Of a stretch of DNA of 64,000 nt, positions 14,653-60,652 are shown piece after piece. Under the pieces are notes generated by a model. The model saw only the letters and a program-made list of their open reading frames with translations. It ran no database searches and was not told the origin of the DNA. The DNA comes from Opitutia bacterium ISCC 52 (GTDB lineage Bacteria; Verrucomicrobiota; Verrucomicrobiia; Opitutales; UBA2995): NCBI GenBank assembly GCA_014529675.2, contig CP076040.1:1798001-1862000 (forward strand), written 5' to 3'. How positions within the stretch are numbered: position 1 is the stretch's first letter; every line of letters begins with the position of its first letter. A program made the translations under genes and the position numbers.

Positions 14653-14720
14653 GGGGTAGTTATTTTGTTTTTTATAGATTTGATTTCATGCATTCCGCAT
14701 TAGCAACCGTAATTCTTAAT

Positions 14721-14750
14721 TAGCCGCAAAAGAACGCAAAGAGCACAAAA
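14721..14750 (+). repeat. Left arm of the inverted repeat bracketing the GxxExxY gene
   Basis: About 30 bases beginning TAGCCGCAAAAGAACGCAAA and continuing with an A-rich CACAAAA tail. The first 22 bases are identical to the reverse complement of 15186-15207. The motif has a near-10-base period (CGCAAAAGAA / CGCAAAGAGC). It lies 40 bases before the start of the gene. Confidence 0.85.
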
Positions 14751-14790
14751 TTTCTATTTCTTAATGATGCTAAATTCCTAGAATGCATTT

Positions 14791-15171
14791 ATGACTGATG
14801 AAATAAAAATACTGTGTGATACAATAAGGGAAACTTCATATGCCATTCATGAATACCATGGACATGGGCACCTCGAAAAAGTTTATGAAAATGCACTCAA
14901 AAATCGGCTCTCGAGGATGGATCTTAATGTTATTCAGCAACATCCCCTCGAAGTTTTTGATGAAGATGGCACTGTGCTCGGTGAATATTTTACGGACCTA
15001 TTTGTAGAGAAGAAACTAATCGTCGAGATCAAAGCCGTCCGAGCCCTAGCTAGTGAGCATGAAGCTCAGTTAATTGGCTACCTCAAATCTAGCCGCGTCG
15101 AACATGGATTACTGATCAACTTTGGTTCCTTCGAATTCCAGATCAAGAAATTCGTACTCAGCCAACCCTAG
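14791..15171 (+). CDS. GxxExxY family protein, PD-(D/E)XK nuclease-like
   Basis: A 126-residue protein of the GxxExxY family (TIGR04256/PF13366), found in scattered copies in many bacteria and without a proven function. The name motif is present as GHLEKVY (G-H-L-E-K-V-Y). A PD-(D/E)XK-like core can be read: Asp in YFTDLFV, then VEIKA supplying E-x-K, followed by HEAQLIGYLK. This would make it a small restriction-endonuclease-fold protein. It has no operon partner: the only neighbours are two facing arms of an inverted repeat 40 bases upstream and 6 bases downstream. The arrangement suggests a mobile or repeat-associated unit. Confidence 0.88.
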   Translation: MTDEIKILCDTIRETSYAIHEYHGHGHLEKVYENALKNRLSRMDLNVIQQHPLEVFDEDGTVLGEYFTDLFVEKKLIVEIKAVRALASEHEAQLIGYLKSSRVEHGLLINFGSFEFQIKKFVLSQP

Positions 15172-15177
15172 ATCATT

Positions 15178-15207
15178 TTTTGCGATCTTTGCGTTCTTTT
15201 GCGGCTA
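15178..15207 (-). repeat. Right arm of the inverted repeat bracketing the GxxExxY gene
   Basis: This arm reads as the reverse complement of the arm at 14721 over 22 uninterrupted bases (15186-15207), then diverges into an A-rich tail. It begins 6 bases after the GxxExxY stop codon, so the repeat could also act as a transcription terminator-like hairpin only by long-range pairing. Confidence 0.85.
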
Positions 15208-15245
15208 AAAAAAGGGCGGGGAGTATAACCTTCATCGGTCTCACG

Positions 15246-15330
15246 ATCGATAGGTGAAGGAGCGCACATGGGTGCGTGACTGAGCCGGGAGTGAGGAACA
15301 ACCGGCATGTTGGCCCGAGGATGGGGGCAA
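15246..15330 (+). repeat. Structured ~80-bp intergenic repeat, copy 1
   Basis: This stretch closely matches 19368-19450 (roughly 80-85 percent by eye). Shared landmarks in order are GATAGG, GGAGCGCACATG, GGTGCGTGACTGAGC, GAGTG, GGAACA and GGCCCGAGGAT. GCGCACATGGGTGCG can form a short hairpin. No reading frame spans it. It lies between the GxxExxY unit and the KDG kinase gene. Type unknown: a REP-like repeat or a small structured RNA. Confidence 0.7.
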
Positions 15331-36650: not shown

Positions 36651-36732
36651 GCAGCCGCAAAAGAACACAAAAATCACAAAAAGAAGAATAAACCTTTGTT
36701 TCCTTGGTTACCTTGAGCGCAAGCGACTGTTG
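36651..36732 (+). repeat. Repeat copy flanking the DUF6090 genes, right
   Basis: It contains a CGCAAAAGAACACAAAAATC arm of the type that flanks the GxxExxY gene, then CTTTGTTTCCTTGGTTACC and the 19-base TTGAGCGCAAGCGACTGTT shared with the left flank at 35072. It follows the dead DUF6090 gene by 13 bases. Confidence 0.7.
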
Positions 36733-40121: not shown

Positions 40122-40150
40122 CCGTATTCTTTAGAGTAAGATTTTAAAGA

Positions 40151-40242
40151 AGTTAACCACTAATGGACACGAATTATAGGAAATAAAGCGCAGAACTACT
40201 TTAGGAATTATTCGTGTACATTAGTGTCCATTCGTGGTTAAC
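40151..40242. repeat. Inverted pair of 10-nt-period repeats (GGACACGAAT type)
   Basis: The left arm AGTTAACCACTAATGGACAC (40151-40170) is answered by the right arm ending GTCCATTCGTGGTTAACT (40225-40242). The arms are separated by about 35 bases and could form a long hairpin. Related arms recur at 48469, 51221 and 53919. Confidence 0.8.
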
Positions 40243-44391: not shown

Positions 44392-45747
44392 TTATTTCTC
44401 AGAACGTGTAAATTGCCCTCTGAGCTCTTCGCTGAAAGTCCCTTGGTCGTATACCGATCGCCCTCTAACCATTGTCTGCTTCACTTGCATGGGGAAAGTC
44501 ATTCCCAGGTAAGGGGAGTGCGGATTTTTATAGTGAAGCTGTTCTCTTCTGATGGCTTGGCTATCATTGAAATCAATGATCGCTAAGTCGGCATCCTTGC
44601 CAAGGGCGATGCTTCCTTTGTTGGGGAGATTGAATCGTGCGGCTGGATTTGAACTTAGAAGTTTAGAGATGTCGCTCAGGCTTAGGTTCAGGTCATCCTT
44701 TAATATACTATAGCTGATCACAGCTGCATGCTGTAGGCTGGAAATTCCGCCCCAGGCATCAAAAAAGGTATTCCCGTTTTTCATGCTTTCAGGACACGGA
44801 GAGTGATCTGAACCAATGGTATCGAACTCACCCTTACGCAACTTGAAGCGTAAAGCCTCCACGGCAGATGCATTACGCAAGGGAGGTGCACACTTGGCCA
44901 GAGGTCCAACGGTTTCTAAGATGGAACTATTCAAGGCAAAGTAATGAGGGCAGGTTTCTACCGTGATATCTACGTCTTGTTCTTTCGCCTCGGTAATCAG
45001 GTCAATTCCTTCTGCACAACTGACGTGGACAATATGAATGGGGCAATTTGTTTCTTTTGAAATCTCAATGGCGCACTGAATAGCTAAGAGCTCAGCTTCG
45101 ATAGGGCGTGAGTCGAGGAAGTCCTGGTAGCTTGTTTGACCTGAATCGACACACTGCTGACCCAGTCGTCCGGTGAGCTCATTATCTTCCGCATGTAGCG
45201 CCAATCGCATGCCAGGAAGCTTGGCGATTGTCTCCATACCTTTCTTCAGTTCCTCCGCATCAACACAGGGAAATTCTTCCAGTCCGCTGTTTGACATGAA
45301 TCCTTTGAATGCGATGACACCTGCCTTGTACAGGGCTTCGAGTTGATCCTGGTTGCCCGGAATTAATCCTCCATAGAGCGCGAAGTCACAGCGACAGTTA
45401 GCCTGAGCTCTTTCCAACTTTTTCTGCAAGCCATCCAAGTCGACCGTTGTCGGAATCGAATTGAGGGGCATGTCGAAAAGACAGGTAACTCCGCCAGCCA
45501 AGGCTGCTTTCGAGCCCGTATCAAAACCCTCCCAATCTGTATTGCCTGGTTCGTTGATGTGGACATGGCTATCGATGATTCCTGGTATGACAATGTCAGC
45601 GCTTGCATCGATCTCCGTGGCACCTTGGCCAGACAGTCCTGATTCTATGGTAGCAATCTTGCCATCGAGAATGCCTAGATCCTTTTCAATCTCTCCGTCG
45701 GGCGTTACGAGTTTACCGCTGAGAATGACTGTGTCGAATTCTGCCAT
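44392..45747 (-). CDS. allB: Allantoinase
   Basis: A 451-residue amidohydrolase that opens allantoin to allantoate. Binuclear metal site: DSHVHINEPG (HxH), the carboxylated Lys in FKGFMSNSG, LALHAEDNE, IVHVSCAEG and GSDHSPCP. The EPG and SDHSP forms favour allantoinase over dihydroorotase, and the neighbours (HIU hydrolase, OHCU decarboxylase, urate/xanthine-type permease) settle it. ATG 45747 is chosen over GTG 45750. No allantoate amidohydrolase or ureidoglycolate enzyme is in the window, so the pathway must continue elsewhere. Confidence 0.93.
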   Translation of the reverse strand: MAEFDTVILSGKLVTPDGEIEKDLGILDGKIATIESGLSGQGATEIDASADIVIPGIIDSHVHINEPGNTDWEGFDTGSKAALAGGVTCLFDMPLNSIPTTVDLDGLQKKLERAQANCRCDFALYGGLIPGNQDQLEALYKAGVIAFKGFMSNSGLEEFPCVDAEELKKGMETIAKLPGMRLALHAEDNELTGRLGQQCVDSGQTSYQDFLDSRPIEAELLAIQCAIEISKETNCPIHIVHVSCAEGIDLITEAKEQDVDITVETCPHYFALNSSILETVGPLAKCAPPLRNASAVEALRFKLRKGEFDTIGSDHSPCPESMKNGNTFFDAWGGISSLQHAAVISYSILKDDLNLSLSDISKLLSSNPAARFNLPNKGSIALGKDADLAIIDFNDSQAIRREQLHYKNPHSPYLGMTFPMQVKQTMVRGRSVYDQGTFSEELRGQFTRSEK

Positions 45748-45878
45748 CACCCAACCGTTTCAAACGCCTTCAAAAGTGCAAGAGGTATAATGTTTAAATA
45801 CAATGAGATACCAAATCTGTTATTGTTTTTCATATTCCCTCCCGTAGTGAACTTTTTAGATGAGCACTTTTGTAGGCT

Positions 45879-45994
45879 AAAATCGACATGCGCGATAAAC
45901 TGCGTTCCGGTCCTCAGCCGCTTGGTCACGTAGTTATCTACGCTCCCGCACTTGCTTGAGAACTGCACCTTGTTTCTCATCACATCTCGATTTT
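45879..45994. repeat. 116-bp imperfect palindrome upstream of allantoinase gene
   Basis: The outer arms AAAATCGACATG (45879-45890) and CATCTCGATTTT (45983-45994) are near-perfect complements. The inner arms TGCGTTCCGG/TCAGCCGCTTGG and their partners pair imperfectly. The centre CGTAGTTATCTACG lies at 45929-45942, exactly midway. It could fold into one long cruciform or an RNA hairpin. An ORF drawn across it is not credible. The type is unknown to me; similar palindromes occur in other bacteria, to my recollection. Confidence 0.65.
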
Positions 45995-46012
45995 TTGAAT
46001 CAATTGGGGCAA

Positions 46013-48468: not shown

Positions 48469-48615
48469 ATTAACCACGAATGGACACGAATAGACACGAA
48501 TTCCTTAAGCCCTCGCATACCTGTATTCCCGTTTTCATTCGTGTTCATTGGAGGGGTGTCGCGTTGCTCGGTAGTGTCCATTGTCGGGGTGTCATTTATT
48601 CGGCAGTGGTTACGT
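48469..48615. repeat. Inverted pair of 10-nt-period repeats with an inserted block
   Basis: The left arm TTAACCACGAATGGACACGA (48469-48488) continues with ATAGACACGAATT. The right arm begins TTTTCATTCGTGTTCATTGG (near 48532) and ends GGCAGTGGTTACG. A block GGGTGTCG...GCTCGGTAGTG lies inside the right arm; the same block, inverted, lies in the left arm at 51221-51270. Confidence 0.7.
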
Positions 48616-53217: not shown

Positions 53218-53955
53218 ATGAAACTAGGTGCATTGTTCGATTGGGATGGGGTAGTGATTGATTCTTCGAAGGCTCATGAAGAGAGCTGGGACCTACTGGG
53301 CGACGAAGTAGGGAAACCACTGCCAGAAGGGCATTTCAAAAAAGGGTTTGGTCGTAAGAATCAAGTGATCATTCCTGAGATTCTCGGATGGACGAATGAT
53401 TCTGAAGAGATCGAGCGTCTGGGAAATCGGAAGGAAGCACTTTACCGGGAGATTGTAGCCGAGAAGGGAGTCGACCGTATTCCTGGAATTGAGGCGTTCC
53501 TTCAAAATTTAAATGCAGTAGGTATTGGCTGCGCGGTTGGTTCGTCGACCCCGAGAAAGAACGTCGAGACGATTCTCGAGATGGTCGGGTTTGGTCCTTA
53601 CTTTCAAGCCATAGTCTGTGCGGAAGATGTGACCCAAGGGAAACCAAACCCCGAGGTCTTTCTAACTGGTGCCTCCAAGCTTGGTCTCGAGGTTGGAAAC
53701 TGTGCCGTTTTCGAAGATGCCTATGCGGGACTTCAAGCTGCTAAAGCAGGCGGTATGAAAGCAATCGCACTTTCCACGACCCATCCAGCAGAGGCGTTAA
53801 AGGCTGAGTCACCCGATCTTATCCTGGAGAATTTCTTGGGATTTGAGTTTGAGAAATTCAGTCATCTTTTTAAACGCAGATCCACTCAGATTAACACAGA
53901 AAAGAATTCCGATTTTCCAAATTATTCGTGTTCATTGGTGTCCATTCGTGGTTAA
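53218..53955 (+). CDS. HAD-superfamily phosphatase (beta-phosphoglucomutase-like)
   Basis: A 245-residue HAD hydrolase. The nucleophile motif is LFDWDGVVIDSSKAH (DWDGV instead of DxDxT), motif II VGSSTPRKN, Lys in VTQGKPNPEVFL, and the metal motif FEDAYAGLQAAKAGG. The cap domain is helical, as in beta-phosphoglucomutase/GPH-type phosphatases. ATG 53218 is preferred to the earlier in-frame start. The last ~28 codons (from about 53871) are repeat sequence: two repeat arms supply the tail KRRSTQINTEKNSDF and the stop, so the natural C-terminus probably ended near FEKFSHLF. Confidence 0.87.
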   Translation: MKLGALFDWDGVVIDSSKAHEESWDLLGDEVGKPLPEGHFKKGFGRKNQVIIPEILGWTNDSEEIERLGNRKEALYREIVAEKGVDRIPGIEAFLQNLNAVGIGCAVGSSTPRKNVETILEMVGFGPYFQAIVCAEDVTQGKPNPEVFLTGASKLGLEVGNCAVFEDAYAGLQAAKAGGMKAIALSTTHPAEALKAESPDLILENFLGFEFEKFSHLFKRRSTQINTEKNSDFPNYSCSLVSIRG

Positions 53956-53956
53956 C
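53871..53956. repeat. Two different 10-nt-period repeat arms inside the 3' end of the HAD gene
   Basis: The left arm TAAACGCAGATCCACTCAGA (53871-53890) continues TTAACACAG and matches, inverted, 57726-57757. The right arm ATTATTCGTGTTCATTGGTG (53921-53940) ends TCCATTCGTGGTTAAC and matches the GGACACGAAT type. The coding frame runs through both and stops in the right arm. Confidence 0.75.
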
Positions 53957-53985
53957 TCCTTAGCTTTCATATCAATCTCGCCTCT

Positions 53986-55422
53986 ATGTTCGATAAAAAG
54001 AAACTTAGTCTAACTGCCAAAATCCTCATTGGGATGTTTACCGGTATTGCTCTTGGTAGTCTTATCAATGCGTTTCTCTCTGGGAATGTTATGGTGGAGA
54101 ACTACCTGGTGGAAGGGCTGTTCGCCATCATCGGCACCATCTTTATTAATGCGCTCAAGATGCTGGTGGTTCCCTTGGTGCTGGTATCGCTGATTTGCGG
54201 AACGGCTGCCTTGGACGATGCACGAAGGGTAGGGACTGTCGGAATTAAGGCGGTCGGATTGTACCTGTTTACAACAGCGGTCGCCATTACTTTGGCCCTG
54301 TGTTGTTCCTTGATTGTTAATCCTGGTAAAGGGATCGATCCGGATAAGTTCATCGAAAAGAAAGCGCCCGTAAGATCTGCGGTTGAGCTGCAAGTCGACG
54401 ATCTGGAAAGTGAACTGGTTGCGGTAAAAGCGGTGATCAATGAGGTGGCGACTAATCAATTGCAAGTCGTGCCGCCGTTTCAGCTCGAGGACAATGCCGA
54501 GGATGAATCAGTAGTCACTTTCACGCCTGCCAAAGCGCCTCCACTCAAAGAGGTGATTATTAATTTGTTTCCCAGCAATCCCTTCCAAGCGATGGCTCAG
54601 GGCAATATGCTCCAGATCATTGTATTCGCTGTGCTCTTCGGGATCGCGCTGACGATGTCGGGGAAAAAAGGGCAACGCGTGCTTTCCATATTTAAGGATT
54701 TGAATGAGGTGGTGATGAAGCTGGTTCTCATTCTGATCGAGCTGGCTCCTTATGGGGTCTTTTGTTTGGTTAGCCGTACTTTCGCTACTCAGGGCTTTGA
54801 TGCGATTTGGCCGCTGGCTAAGTATTTCTTCCTCGTAGTCGGTGTACTGCTCATTCACGCCTCATTGACCTATCCTTTACTACTAAAATTCCTGACTGGG
54901 TTGAGTCCTTTTACCTTCCTGAAAAAGATGCGCGAAGCACAGATCTTTGCCTTCAGTACTGCGAGTAGCAATGCCACGATTCCAGTGACTCTGGAAACAG
55001 CGGAAAAGGATTTGGGAGTGAATAACTCAATTGCCTCGTTTACGGTTCCACTGGGTGCCACCATTAATATGGATGGCACGGCTGTCATGCAGGGAGTTGC
55101 CACCATCTTTATTGCTCAAGCCTACGGTATTGACCTGACCTTTGGAAATCTGATGACCGTGATTGTAACGGCCACGCTGGCCTCAGTCGGGACGGCTGGT
55201 GTTCCCAGTGCCGGACTCATCATGCTTTCCATTGTGCTTATACAAATCGGCCTTCCAGTCGATGCGATCGCCATCATTTGGGGTATTGATCGCTTACTCG
55301 ATATGCTGAGAACCTCCGTCAATATCACCGGTGATGCCATGGTAACCACGATCGTTGGAAAGTGGGAAGGGCAGTTGGATAAAGACATCTTTAATAATGA
55401 CACGTCTTCGTCTGAAGGATGA
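53986..55422 (+). CDS. Dicarboxylate/amino acid:cation symporter (SDF family)
   Basis: A 478-residue sodium- or proton-coupled carrier of the glutamate/aspartate/dicarboxylate family. Conserved substrate-site segments are AFSTASSNATIPVTLE (HP1 serine-rich loop), GATINMDGTAVMQGVATIF (NMDGT motif) and TLASVGTAGVPSAGLIML (HP2). Eight helices and two hairpins can be traced. An extra hydrophilic insertion of about 70 residues (VDDLESELVAVKAVINEVAT to TFTPAKAPPL) lies in the loop after helix 3. The gene begins 30 bases after the HAD gene, with the repeat between. Confidence 0.93.
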   Translation: MFDKKKLSLTAKILIGMFTGIALGSLINAFLSGNVMVENYLVEGLFAIIGTIFINALKMLVVPLVLVSLICGTAALDDARRVGTVGIKAVGLYLFTTAVAITLALCCSLIVNPGKGIDPDKFIEKKAPVRSAVELQVDDLESELVAVKAVINEVATNQLQVVPPFQLEDNAEDESVVTFTPAKAPPLKEVIINLFPSNPFQAMAQGNMLQIIVFAVLFGIALTMSGKKGQRVLSIFKDLNEVVMKLVLILIELAPYGVFCLVSRTFATQGFDAIWPLAKYFFLVVGVLLIHASLTYPLLLKFLTGLSPFTFLKKMREAQIFAFSTASSNATIPVTLETAEKDLGVNNSIASFTVPLGATINMDGTAVMQGVATIFIAQAYGIDLTFGNLMTVIVTATLASVGTAGVPSAGLIMLSIVLIQIGLPVDAIAIIWGIDRLLDMLRTSVNITGDAMVTTIVGKWEGQLDKDIFNNDTSSSEG

Positions 55423-55440
55423 GAACTATACAAGGAATTG

Positions 55441-55603
55441 AATAAACCACTGATAACACTGATAAGCACTGATCTATAACTTCGTGAATTGCTCTGAATA
55501 AATTATAGGAGCGTATCTAAATTGTATCATCTGCGCATTTGGTTGTTCATTTATTACTCCGCTTCCTCAGTATCAGTGTAAATCAGTGCCTTCCGTGGGT
55601 TAA
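55441..55603. repeat. Inverted pair of 10-nt-period repeats (CACTGATA type)
   Basis: The left arm AATAAACCACTGATAACACT (55441-55460) continues GATAAGCACTGAT. The right arm CTCAGTATCAGTGTAAATCA (55566-55585) ends GTGCCTTCCGTGGGTTAAA, three bases before the uvrB start codon. The gap between the arms is about 90 bases. Confidence 0.75.
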
Positions 55604-55605
55604 AA

Positions 55606-57630
55606 ATGTCATCCTCCGAAAAGTTTAAGTTAGCAGCTGAATACACCCCTCGTGGAGACCAACCAGAGGCAATCGATCAGTTGGTGAAGTCGATTCAGGA
55701 CGGGAACCGTTTTCAGACTTTGTTGGGCGTTACGGGATCGGGGAAGACCTTTACGATGGCCAATGTGATTGAGCAGATTCAGCGGCCGACGCTCATCATG
55801 TCGCATAATAAGACCTTGGCGGCTCAGCTCTACTCGGAGTTTAAAAACTTTTTCCCGGACAATGCCGTCGAGTACTTTGTCAGCTACTACGACTATTATC
55901 AGCCGGAGGCCTATGTGCCGGCAACTGATACCTATATCGAGAAAGATTCCTCCATTAACGACGAGATCGAGCGCCTGCGGATTGCTGCGACTAGCTCGTT
56001 GATCAGTCGGAGGGATGTGTTGGTGGTAGCCAGTGTGTCTTGCATTTATGGCCTGGGATCACCTGAAGATTATCAGGAGCTCATGATTCCATTGCGCATT
56101 GGTTCAGACATCGGGCGTGATCCACTCCTGCATCGCCTGGTAGACATTCAGTATAATCGAAATGACGTAGACTTGTCTCGAGGGAATTTTCGTGTGCGTG
56201 GCGATGTAGTGGATATCTTTCCAGCCTACATGGAGACATCCATTCGTGTTGAGTTCTGGGGGGATGAGATCGATAGCATCAAGGAGCTAGATCCCTTGAC
56301 GGGTGACACAGGGGCTTCGCTCAATCACTTTGATTTGTGCCCGGCCAATCAATACCTGACGACCAAAGGAAAAGTTGAGGGATCCATTGACGGTATTAAA
56401 CAGGAGTTGGAAGAACGGGTTGCTTACTTCGAATCTCGTGGGCTGCTTCTGGAGGCGCAACGTGTCCGCATGCGAACCGACTACGACCTGGAGCAATTAC
56501 AAGAACTTGGGTTTTGCAGTGGAATTGAAAATTATTCTCGCTGGTTCAGTGGTAGGAAGCCCGGAGAACGACCTTTCTGTCTAATTGATTTCTTTCCGGA
56601 TGACCTGCTGATCATGTTGGACGAGAGTCACGCGACGCTCCCACAGATTGGTGGAATGTATCAGGGAGATCGTTCTCGGAAAACTACCCTGGTTGAGCAT
56701 GGATTTCGTTTACCCTCTGCGTTGGATAATCGCCCGATGAATATTGAGGAATTCATGGAGTTGGCCAAGCAAGTGATGTTTGTCTCCGCGACACCACGAC
56801 CCTTCGAGATGGAAAATTCGGCGGTAGTCGCTGAACAGATAATTCGGCCCACCGGACTGTTGGATCCGACGATGGAAATACTACCAACCAAAGGGCAGGT
56901 GGAGCATTTGATCGGGGAGATTAAGAATGCAGTTGATCAGGAAGAACGGGTGCTCGTGACAACCTTGACCAAGCGCATGTCCGAAGATCTGACGACCTTT
57001 CTTAGAGAGGCTGAAATCCGTGTAGAATACCTGCACAGTGATATTGATGCGATTGAGCGTGTGGAAATCCTTCGCAGACTGCGTGCGGGAGATTTTGATG
57101 TTCTGGTTGGCGTGAACCTATTACGCGAGGGACTGGATTTACCCGAGGTAGCGTTGGTCGCGATTCTAGATGCAGACAAAGAAGGCTTTTTGAGAAACTT
57201 CACCAGTCTGGTTCAAACGGCTGGCCGGGCTGCCCGTCATGAAAAGGGCCGGGTATTGCTCTATGCCGATAAGCTGAACGATTCTCTAAAGAAGACGATC
57301 GCAGTAACGGCCTATCGACGAGATAAACAGGAAGCCTACAACGAGGAACATGGCATCACCCCCAAAAGTGTGGTGCGTCCTGTGCAATCCAGTTTGGTTT
57401 ACCAAACCAAAGAGGAAGATACCGGGCTGGTCGCAGAAGCATTGGGTGGGGATGAACGCAAACAGGTCATTGCGGAAATGGAGCAGGAAATGCTTGAGGC
57501 GGCCGATAGTCTGGAATTTGAGCGTGCTGCATTGTTGCGTGACCAAATCTCCCTGCTTCGATCCGGAAAGGACGGGGCACCTAAGAAAAAGGGAAGAAGT
57601 CGCGGCTACGGTAGACGCGGAAGAAGATAA
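55606..57630 (+). CDS. uvrB: Excinuclease ABC subunit B
   Basis: A 674-residue UvrB, the damage-verifying helicase of nucleotide excision repair that loads UvrC. Walker A is GVTGSGKTFTMANV; the beta-hairpin is SYYDYYQPEAYVPATDTYIE; Walker B is LIMLDESHAT; motifs V/VI are VGVNLLREGLDLPEV and QTAGRAARHEKGRV. The UVR domain at the C-terminus (IAEMEQEMLEAADSLEFERA) contacts UvrC. A short basic tail (KKKGRSRGYGRRGRR) follows. No Shine-Dalgarno site precedes the ATG; the leader is a repeat arm. A degenerate REP begins 1 base after the stop. Confidence 0.98.
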   Translation: MSSSEKFKLAAEYTPRGDQPEAIDQLVKSIQDGNRFQTLLGVTGSGKTFTMANVIEQIQRPTLIMSHNKTLAAQLYSEFKNFFPDNAVEYFVSYYDYYQPEAYVPATDTYIEKDSSINDEIERLRIAATSSLISRRDVLVVASVSCIYGLGSPEDYQELMIPLRIGSDIGRDPLLHRLVDIQYNRNDVDLSRGNFRVRGDVVDIFPAYMETSIRVEFWGDEIDSIKELDPLTGDTGASLNHFDLCPANQYLTTKGKVEGSIDGIKQELEERVAYFESRGLLLEAQRVRMRTDYDLEQLQELGFCSGIENYSRWFSGRKPGERPFCLIDFFPDDLLIMLDESHATLPQIGGMYQGDRSRKTTLVEHGFRLPSALDNRPMNIEEFMELAKQVMFVSATPRPFEMENSAVVAEQIIRPTGLLDPTMEILPTKGQVEHLIGEIKNAVDQEERVLVTTLTKRMSEDLTTFLREAEIRVEYLHSDIDAIERVEILRRLRAGDFDVLVGVNLLREGLDLPEVALVAILDADKEGFLRNFTSLVQTAGRAARHEKGRVLLYADKLNDSLKKTIAVTAYRRDKQEAYNEEHGITPKSVVRPVQSSLVYQTKEEDTGLVAEALGGDERKQVIAEMEQEMLEAADSLEFERAALLRDQISLLRSGKDGAPKKKGRSRGYGRRGRR

Positions 57631-59185: not shown

Positions 59186-59296
59186 GTAGAACAGGCGTCT
59201 CGCCTGTTTATTGCTCCTCGATGGTCACAGATTGAATCGAACCGTTTAATTGTGTTGAGTGTCTTTGAAAAAACACAGGCAAGATGCCTGTGCTAC
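59186..59296. repeat. REP doublet, CAGGC family
   Basis: The left REP GTAGAACAGGCGTCTCGCCT starts at 59186, 2 bases after the sulfatase stop codon. The inverted right REP AACACAGGCAAGATGCCTGT ends GCTAC at 59296 (GTAG on the minus strand). It spans the whole sulfatase to YcaQ gap and may serve as terminator. Confidence 0.85.
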
Positions 59297-59308
59297 TTTA
59301 ATTAAGCG

Positions 59309-60466
59309 ATGGAATCTATTACCAAAGCTCAGGCTCGTCGCCTAGCCATCGCCAGCTCTCTTAACGGTAATGGTAAAGGTCGAGGTAGGCAGGCGGCCTT
59401 AAAAACGGTGAAGCACCTGGGCTATGTTCAAATCGATACCATCTCGGTGATTGAACGGGCGCATCACCATGTTTTTTGGTCCAGGCAGGAGAGTTACCAG
59501 ACGGATTATTTAAATGATCTATTGGCTAAAGATAGATCTGTATTCGAACAATGGGCACATGCAGTCGCCTATATGCCGATTGAGGACTATCGATACTACC
59601 TCCCCAAGATGGAGGATGAGCGAAAGCCACCGACTAATAAGTGGCAGCGAAAGCGTTTCGAATTGGCTAAAACTCACATTAAAAATGTCATGAAACGTAT
59701 TCGTAAGGAAGGTCCGCTTTCTTCGAAGGATTTTGACCATGATGGAAAGAAGAGCTCTGGAGGATGGGGACCATTGAAGCCGGCCAAATTGGCCCTGGAT
59801 ATTTTGTATAGCCAAGGTGATCTCATGATCTCCTCTCGGCGAAATTTCCAACGAGTCTTTGATCTGACCGAACGGGTACTGCCGGAGGGTCTGGATCTTT
59901 CGATGCCTGATCCTGAGGACTGTGCGAGACACCAGATCCGACGAACGTTGACTGCCATGGGATTAGCTCGTGAGTCAGAAATTAATAAGCACCTTCAGTT
60001 GGCAGACCGAAAAACTATCCATTTTGTGATCCAAGATATGCTTGAGGCTGATGAGGTCATTTCTTTGAAGGTAAGAGGGATTCCAGATGAGGTTTATTAC
60101 GCGCTGCCAGATACTCTGAATCAATTATCGAAGCTTCGGGTTTCCAAGCAGATCCGCATCCTGTCTCCTTTTGATAATATGGTGATTCAGCGTGAAAGGA
60201 TGAAGTTGCTTTTTGATTTTGAATACACGATCGAATGTTACGTGCCAGCAGCTAAGCGTGTATTCGGCTATTTCGTATGTCCAATTTTCTGGGGAAGCGA
60301 ATTGGTCGCCCGCATTGATATGAAAGCGGACCGGAAGACAAAGACCTTGATGGTCCAACAGTTGCATTATGAATCACATTTGAAGGATCAAACGGCCTTT
60401 GATTCTGCTTTGGAAAAGGCCCTTGAAGAATTTGCCCAATTTAATGGATGTGAAGAAGTAAGGTAG
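59309..60466 (+). CDS. YcaQ/AlkX-type winged-helix DNA glycosylase family protein
   Basis: A 385-residue protein of the crosslink-repair DNA glycosylase YcaQ family (DUF1006). The start is SITKAQARRLAIASSLNG, and the QxD catalytic motif appears as VQIDTISVIERAHHH. Other conserved parts are FEQWAHAVAYMPIEDYRYY and LSPFDNMVIQRERMKLLFDFEY. Three winged-helix-like domains are expected. E. coli YcaQ unhooks interstrand crosslinks, so a repair role fits beside uvrB. Its stop codon TAG forms part of the GTAG of a REP. Confidence 0.87.
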   Translation: MESITKAQARRLAIASSLNGNGKGRGRQAALKTVKHLGYVQIDTISVIERAHHHVFWSRQESYQTDYLNDLLAKDRSVFEQWAHAVAYMPIEDYRYYLPKMEDERKPPTNKWQRKRFELAKTHIKNVMKRIRKEGPLSSKDFDHDGKKSSGGWGPLKPAKLALDILYSQGDLMISSRRNFQRVFDLTERVLPEGLDLSMPDPEDCARHQIRRTLTAMGLARESEINKHLQLADRKTIHFVIQDMLEADEVISLKVRGIPDEVYYALPDTLNQLSKLRVSKQIRILSPFDNMVIQRERMKLLFDFEYTIECYVPAAKRVFGYFVCPIFWGSELVARIDMKADRKTKTLMVQQLHYESHLKDQTAFDSALEKALEEFAQFNGCEEVR

Positions 60467-60604
60467 CACAGGCATCTTGCCTGTGTATTGAAATGGTACC
60501 GCTGGAAAAGTATCTAAATGTAATTGAACTTGCATGGCGGTGCGAAGTTTTAGGACTCTATCCAGACGTCGTTGGTAAAACACAGGCAAGGATGCCTGTG
60601 CTAC
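60463..60604. repeat. REP doublet, CAGGC family, overlapping a stop codon
   Basis: The left REP GTAGCACAGGCATCTTGCCT begins at 60463; bases 60464-60466 are the stop of the YcaQ-like gene. The inverted right REP AACACAGGCAAGGATGCCTG ends CTAC at 60604. Both stems are nearly perfect. A short unrelated stretch of about 90 bases separates the arms. Confidence 0.88.
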
Positions 60605-60652
60605 TCTATTTTAGTATCGCATTTGGAATGCGAATTTTCATACATTGCTTTT

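Follow-up and report, generated by a model that had tools for sequence, protein, structure and literature searches.

Two described systems come closest to the element analysed here, each in a different respect. REPIN/RAYT (TnpA-REP) systems are the closest in population structure, since both consist of facing repeats around one gene, many gene-free facing pairs and a repeat number tied to the gene, all in intergenic positions. The RAYT protein is, however, a tyrosine transposase of the HUH type and each REP a single palindrome that bears a tetranucleotide tag, whereas the element described below carries a predicted PD-(D/E)XK nuclease of the GxxExxY type between arms that are each a tandem array of three cores of about 7 nt. 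The closest in build is the S23-type intervening sequence (IVS) found in the 23S rRNA of Coxiella and Leptospira, with a length of about 430 nt, one small ORF and 28-bp terminal inverted repeats, and proposed to be selfish (PMC4990558). In the Coxiella IVS, the 28-bp terminal stem and the one small ORF are accompanied by short tandem GACAGAT heptamers that adjoin the start codon, and the origin of S23/IVS is still described as unclear (PMC4990558). Its ORF encodes a four-helix bundle, its repeat unit is 7 nt and it lies in 23S rRNA, whereas the GxxExxY elements are intergenic and have a core spacing of 8-11 nt. Heptamer repeats of unexplained origin have also been described in Beggiatoaceae and others, a repeat-binding mobile protein being one suggested possibility (PMC4679880).

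Other known systems share some traits. IS elements and MITEs have inverted-repeat ends and come in autonomous and non-autonomous forms, but the GxxExxY element lacks a DDE transposase, its ends are three-core arrays and no target-site duplication was seen. Homing endonucleases of the PD-(D/E)XK type (such as I-Ssp6803I) are selfish genes with the same nuclease fold that spread by break and repair; they sit in introns and split their target, unlike the GxxExxY element, in which the arms on both sides of the gene are intact. Cas4/RecB-type nucleases share with the GxxExxY protein the fold and the D, ExK and QxxxY residues, but the latter is a minimal one-domain protein (about 126 aa) with no adjacent cas genes in the window. 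The GxxExxY element is thus different in protein and ends from each of the systems compared. GxxExxY proteins have had no role; in the open-access literature searched two papers name them, at least one of these only in passing, and the search returned no report of these arm sequences in a bacterial context.

The element lies in a 64,000-nt stretch of the genome of Opitutia bacterium ISCC 52 (contig CP076040.1, positions 1,798,001 to 1,862,000), referred to here as the window, and has three parts:

14720 to 14750, plus strand: left arm, CGCAAAA-GAA-CGCAAAG-AG-CACAAA, with three cores, preceded by TTAGC
14791 to 15171, plus strand: GxxExxY gene, 126 aa, predicted PD-(D/E)XK nuclease of the RecB/Cas4-like type
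15178 to 15208, minus strand: right arm, inverted copy of the left, reading CGCAAAA-GAA-CGCAAAG-AT-CGCAAA on the minus strand

A preliminary description of the window had reported a PD-(D/E)XK-like GxxExxY gene tightly enclosed by inverted, matching arms, and both the arrangement and the identity of the gene were borne out. The arms (31 nt, 427 nt apart) are 94% complementary and their first 23 nt are identical; the gene starts 40 nt past the left arm and ends 6 nt short of the right one. The fixed 10-nt period that had been assigned to the arms is replaced by a core of about 7 nt and a short spacer of variable length: in the window element the cores CGCAAAA, CGCAAAG and CRCAAA are separated by 3 and 2 nt, and their starts are 10 and 9 nt apart. 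The facing score of the pair is 26, and none of 2926 random placements of the same geometry within the window exceeded 15, hence the pairing is not due to chance. No family match to a DDE or other known transposase was obtained for the element, which has a single ORF, and an HUH tyrosine transposase is absent from it, its sole gene being that of the PD-(D/E)XK protein. Immediately to the right, at 15243-15325, is a dispersed repeat (about 80-100 nt) for which dozens of matches were obtained in the genus but none in Rfam.

The protein matched the profiles PF13366 (PDDEXK_3; 8.6e-31) and TIGR04256 (1.4e-33), with scores of 107.2 and 115.7 bits against curated cut-offs of 22 and 35, respectively. 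In an AlphaFold2 model (mean pLDDT 95.9) its best match among solved folds was the Cas4 protein SSO0001 (4ic1; Foldseek E 1.9e-4, Z 10.0, rmsd 4.6, 104 aligned residues), followed by other PD-(D/E)XK nucleases. RecB-type nucleases have the residue set D...ExK...QxxxY; the residues E29, D69, E79, K81, Q93 and Y97, each shared by 90% or more of 109 sequences, fit this set. The modelled fold is that of a PD-(D/E)XK nuclease of the RecB/Cas4-like kind, and the predicted active-site residues are in place. Kinship with T7 endonuclease I was considered and dropped (sequence E about 0.5, and absent from the fold matches listed). Intact GxxExxY genes are under strong purifying selection, with a dN/dS of 0.03-0.15 in intact gene pairs with unsaturated synonymous sites; in the broken pair L010/L088 the ratio was clearly higher. 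Carriage by phages or plasmids was rejected, as a PHROG search gave no real match for the family and only eight of 72,556 plasmid records contained it, and so was a role as an anti-phage defence system, PADLOC returning only weak partial matches (best 16.6 bits).

The window is part of one contig of 4.8 Mb, in which eleven GxxExxY matches represent about ten genes. When the flanks of all of them were read, facing arms were found around nearly every gene; the arm sequence varies from gene to gene, and the two arms of any one gene match. The following arm types were seen at other genes of this genome:

L008: CACGAAT cores
L010: CGCAGAT cores
L001: ACTACGAAA/CGCTAAA cores
L002 and L004: AACGAAGG cores
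L005 and L006: CACAAAA cores

The exceptions are L003, where the gene is broken and arms are absent, and L011 (1644-2000), where it is truncated and only a left arm is present. The sequence adjoining the truncated L011 gene looks, by eye, like the start of an IS3-type transposase.

Across elements an arm consists of three cores of about 7 nt (CRCRRAD-like) spaced mostly 8-11 nt apart; autocorrelation of GxxExxY arms peaks at lags 9-10 and the best period per element is mostly 8 to 11. Arms match within an element and differ between elements. The commonest differences between arms are A-G changes, and in both GxxExxY sets taken together 175 mismatches were G-U-compatible versus 204 that were not. 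Since this reveals no G-U-directed bias, the arm sequences are more likely read as DNA than as RNA. At orthologous elements 44 positions mirrored between the two arms were counted versus 7.6 expected, of which about a dozen come from well-aligned pairs; because several alignments were out of register, a concerted change of both arms is suggestive only. On many contigs of genome G044 we observed about 20 near-identical arms (AACCACGGATCACACAGATGTTCACGGA) that are probably part of a longer high-copy element.

The preliminary description had raised the question whether GxxExxY genes are bracketed by facing repeats more often than other small genes, and this proved to be the case, with a facing score of 14 taken as a cut-off of our own choice. 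In the same order 61 of 76 GxxExxY genes reached at least 14 compared to 3.4% of cross-locus flank pairs (median 20.8 within a locus, 8.5 across loci). A separate collection from many phyla gave 59 of 78 loci versus 1 of 417 random placements (medians 19.3 and 9.0 within and across loci); the cross-locus rate of this set is higher (9.4%), many elements having arms of the CACAGAG type in common, and therefore random placements are the cleaner control there. These frequencies refer to loci most of which are the best matches to the family, in related genomes that are not independent and many of which are MAGs, and the 80 loci of a contig profile scan over-represent the GPGLLES-type subfamily, since an alignment of closer relatives was used for that scan. 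Among other small ORFs of the same loci 3 of 92 scored at least 14, and by sequence these three were the second GxxExxY copy of genome G006 and two S23 four-helix proteins; of the 89 unrelated small ORFs none did, by which the explanation that any small gene would do was rejected. The arms are thus shown to be general, nearly constant companions of GxxExxY genes that mark the ends of a unit, which measures 466 nt from arm edge to arm edge (median, interquartile range 451-510, n = 128). Of 103 elements, 61 have the GxxExxY gene in the same direction as the genes on either side, and 7, the window element among them, have it opposed to both.

Facing arms also surround genes of S23 four-helix-bundle proteins (TIGR02436), for which 20 of 32 loci scored at least 14 (median 16.5 versus 8.0 across loci), with autocorrelation peaks at 7 and 14. 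At L114-L142, L019 and L020, and also at L202 (929-1259) and L171 (827-1139), the arms are heptamer repeats, for example AGGCTGTAGGCTGTGGGCTGT and GGTTCTGGGTTATG. An exception to the correspondence of protein and period is L118 (in G006), where an S23 gene has arm units of 9 nt (GGCACAAAG) that are GxxExxY-like and not heptameric. The bracketing of S23 genes may link intergenic heptamer repeats with the rRNA IVS elements.

A dependence of repeat number on the gene, raised as a possibility at the outset, was evident when a strict three-core pattern was counted in 88 genomes of the order, 45 with and 43 without a GxxExxY gene. All but nine of its 1142 occurrences (1133) were in gene-carrying genomes, and the reversed pattern occurred 8 times. 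Arms were present in 39 of 45 genomes with the gene versus 4 of 43 without it (Fisher p = 4e-14), and in 25 of 28 versus 2 of 22 genera (p = 8e-9); the association also held when only genomes with a size of 2 Mb or more were compared (p = 6e-8). Six gene-carrying genomes have no arms of the strict AACC pattern, and the four gene-less genomes with arms have a few of them. Arm similarity moreover rises with protein identity (Mantel r = 0.29, maximum of 500 permutations 0.17). The rarer ACTACGAAA arm type was counted 20 times in G001, 9 times in G002, 4 times in the organism's own genome and at most 3 times elsewhere, being most abundant in genomes in which such a gene had been observed, a test that is partial because the arms of the genes were read only for some genomes.

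Gene-free relatives of the element within the window, which had been described before, were confirmed as a facing pair at 40150 and related arms at 36656, 48475, 51221, 53871 and 55441. Those with further features are:

36651 to 36681, plus strand: solitary arm of a type shared with the window element (CGCAAAAGAACACAAAAATCACAAA)
40150 to 40174, plus strand: left arm belonging to a gene-free element; its type, CACTAAT/CACGAAT, is that of L008, a gene of this genome
40220 to 40244, minus strand: right arm, partner of the arm at 40150 across a loop of 45 nt
48469 to 48502, plus strand: arm of a gene-free element, CACGAAT type
53871 to 53957, no strand assigned: gene-free element with a left arm of CGCAGAT type and a right arm of CACGAAT type

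No facing partner was found for the arm at about 36651. The congener G005 (about 85% identical) lacks the arm of 48469 in the same intergenic stretch, and at the site of 53871 it has a gene-free element too, with CGCAGAT-type arms on both sides, the arm types thus differing between the species. These gene-free pairs alongside bracketed genes support the earlier suggestion of a gene-carrying and a gene-free form of one element. We also observed a CACTGAT-type facing pair at 55385-55625, at the place of which G005 has a ACTACGAAA-type arm amid remnants of the older pair. The window contains two further kinds of repeat: a dispersed one of 260 nt (45749-46008) with many copies in the genus, which G005 cleanly lacks at the orthologous position (45735 to 46011 versus 14 nt), and three related copies of 21-34 nt (AGCACAGGCATCTTGCCTGTG) in alternating orientation at 59270-59303, 60456-60489 and 60591-60611.

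The proposal that the gene is spread together with its repeats is supported by copies within one genome that match over the whole unit, both arms included, and whose similarity stops at the outer arm edges, as seen in a pair of G001 (L071/L075, 86% identical) and a pair of G006 (93%). Empty sites in close relatives, which the preliminary description had suggested looking for, were found in part: G005 has the intergenic region in which the window element lies, but not the element itself. The left flank is kept to 14714 and the right one from 15243, and some 160 nt of unrelated sequence separate the two, but the right flank is rearranged and the site is not a clean empty one. At another site (L002/L085) the element is inverted relative to flanks that are 83 and 89% identical to G005, and at a third (L062/L065) flanks of 91 and 87% identity enclose different elements with differing arms and clearly diverged proteins. 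In G058 a gene-free TGCCCGCGAAG arm pair, the type of its own gene L112, is nested inside a CACAGAG pair. Inspection of five pairs of element ends by eye revealed no target-site duplication, and no clean insertion scar was found at the sites examined. The unit thus occurs at new places within a genome and is missing, inverted or replaced at orthologous sites, and we take these comparisons as signs of its gain, loss, inversion and overwriting.

We consider it probable that the window element is a minimal mobile element in its autonomous form, about 450-510 bp long, with one nuclease gene and facing arms as its ends. That gene-free units of one genome have mostly unrelated loops speaks against this reading, as it is unlike the plain copying of one unit, and we know of no precedent for a nuclease as the sole mobility protein. 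The strongest of the rival explanations is that it is the arms which move or recombine, through the action of a host enzyme or some other one, with the GxxExxY gene as only a frequent passenger. A nuclease alone has no known joining activity, the arms far outnumber the genes in most gene-carrying genomes, and some gene copies are broken while their arms remain, all of which speak for a passenger. Against it stand the lack of any unrelated small gene between such arms, an arm type that tracks protein relatedness, the near absence of arms from gene-less genomes and the strong purifying selection on intact genes, and we judge this explanation unlikely.

Two further explanations are weaker. The facing arms could act as RNA, forming a long transcript stem around the gene that serves in protection, termination or RNase III excision as in rRNA IVSs; any facing pair is able to pair in RNA, the terminal stem of the S23-type IVS (28 bp) is cut by RNase III (PMC4990558), and the GxxExxY gene is often co-directional with both neighbours, as in the 61 of 103 elements mentioned. 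The mismatches between arms are, however, not biased to G-U, an RNA stem does not need a tandem core array in each arm, and Rfam recognised no known RNA family in the window. With the missing G-U bias we rejected an RNA stem as the main cause of the arms, and the explanation as a whole appears very unlikely. Least probable, to our judgement, is a domesticated host system in which the nuclease processes or limits chromosomal arm hairpins, with little spread today, similar to the host role proposed for RAYTs. It would agree with the purifying selection, with the strong co-occurrence of gene and arms and with a location that is chromosomal rather than on plasmids (eight of 72,556 records), but it is at odds with the patchy presence between congeners and several diverged copies per genome, and with decayed and interrupted copies as well as same-genome duplicates.

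Under the mobile-element reading, we infer that the nuclease itself moves the arms. The GxxExxY protein would recognise the cores of about 7 nt, three per arm, probably acting as an oligomer that bridges both arms, and would nick or cut at the arms or at the hairpin or cruciform that these can form. Host repair or replication might then copy the unit, in either orientation, into another intergenic position or over a resident element related to it, and arm pairs that lack the gene would therefore be mobilised in trans. Such a break-and-repair process between arm pairs, rather than classical cut-and-paste transposition, is what the inversion and the replacement seen at fixed sites suggest. It is conceivable, though we hold it to be somewhat doubtful, that GxxExxY and S23 elements together form a widespread class of minimal bacterial elements with one of the two as the sole gene (on spaced cores of 8-11 nt and on 7-nt cores, respectively) and facing tandem-core arms that change together, which spread by break-and-repair rewriting of arm pairs with no known transposase chemistry.

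GxxExxY proteins span many bacterial phyla, often with several per genome, and the link to facing repeats gives this family a testable job and, conversely, a class of abundant intergenic repeats an origin, with a shared design with the S23/IVS elements being indicated. If the nuclease is indeed the only mobility protein, this would represent an unrecorded mode of DNA spread, in which the core sequence is apparently read by a small, variable protein.
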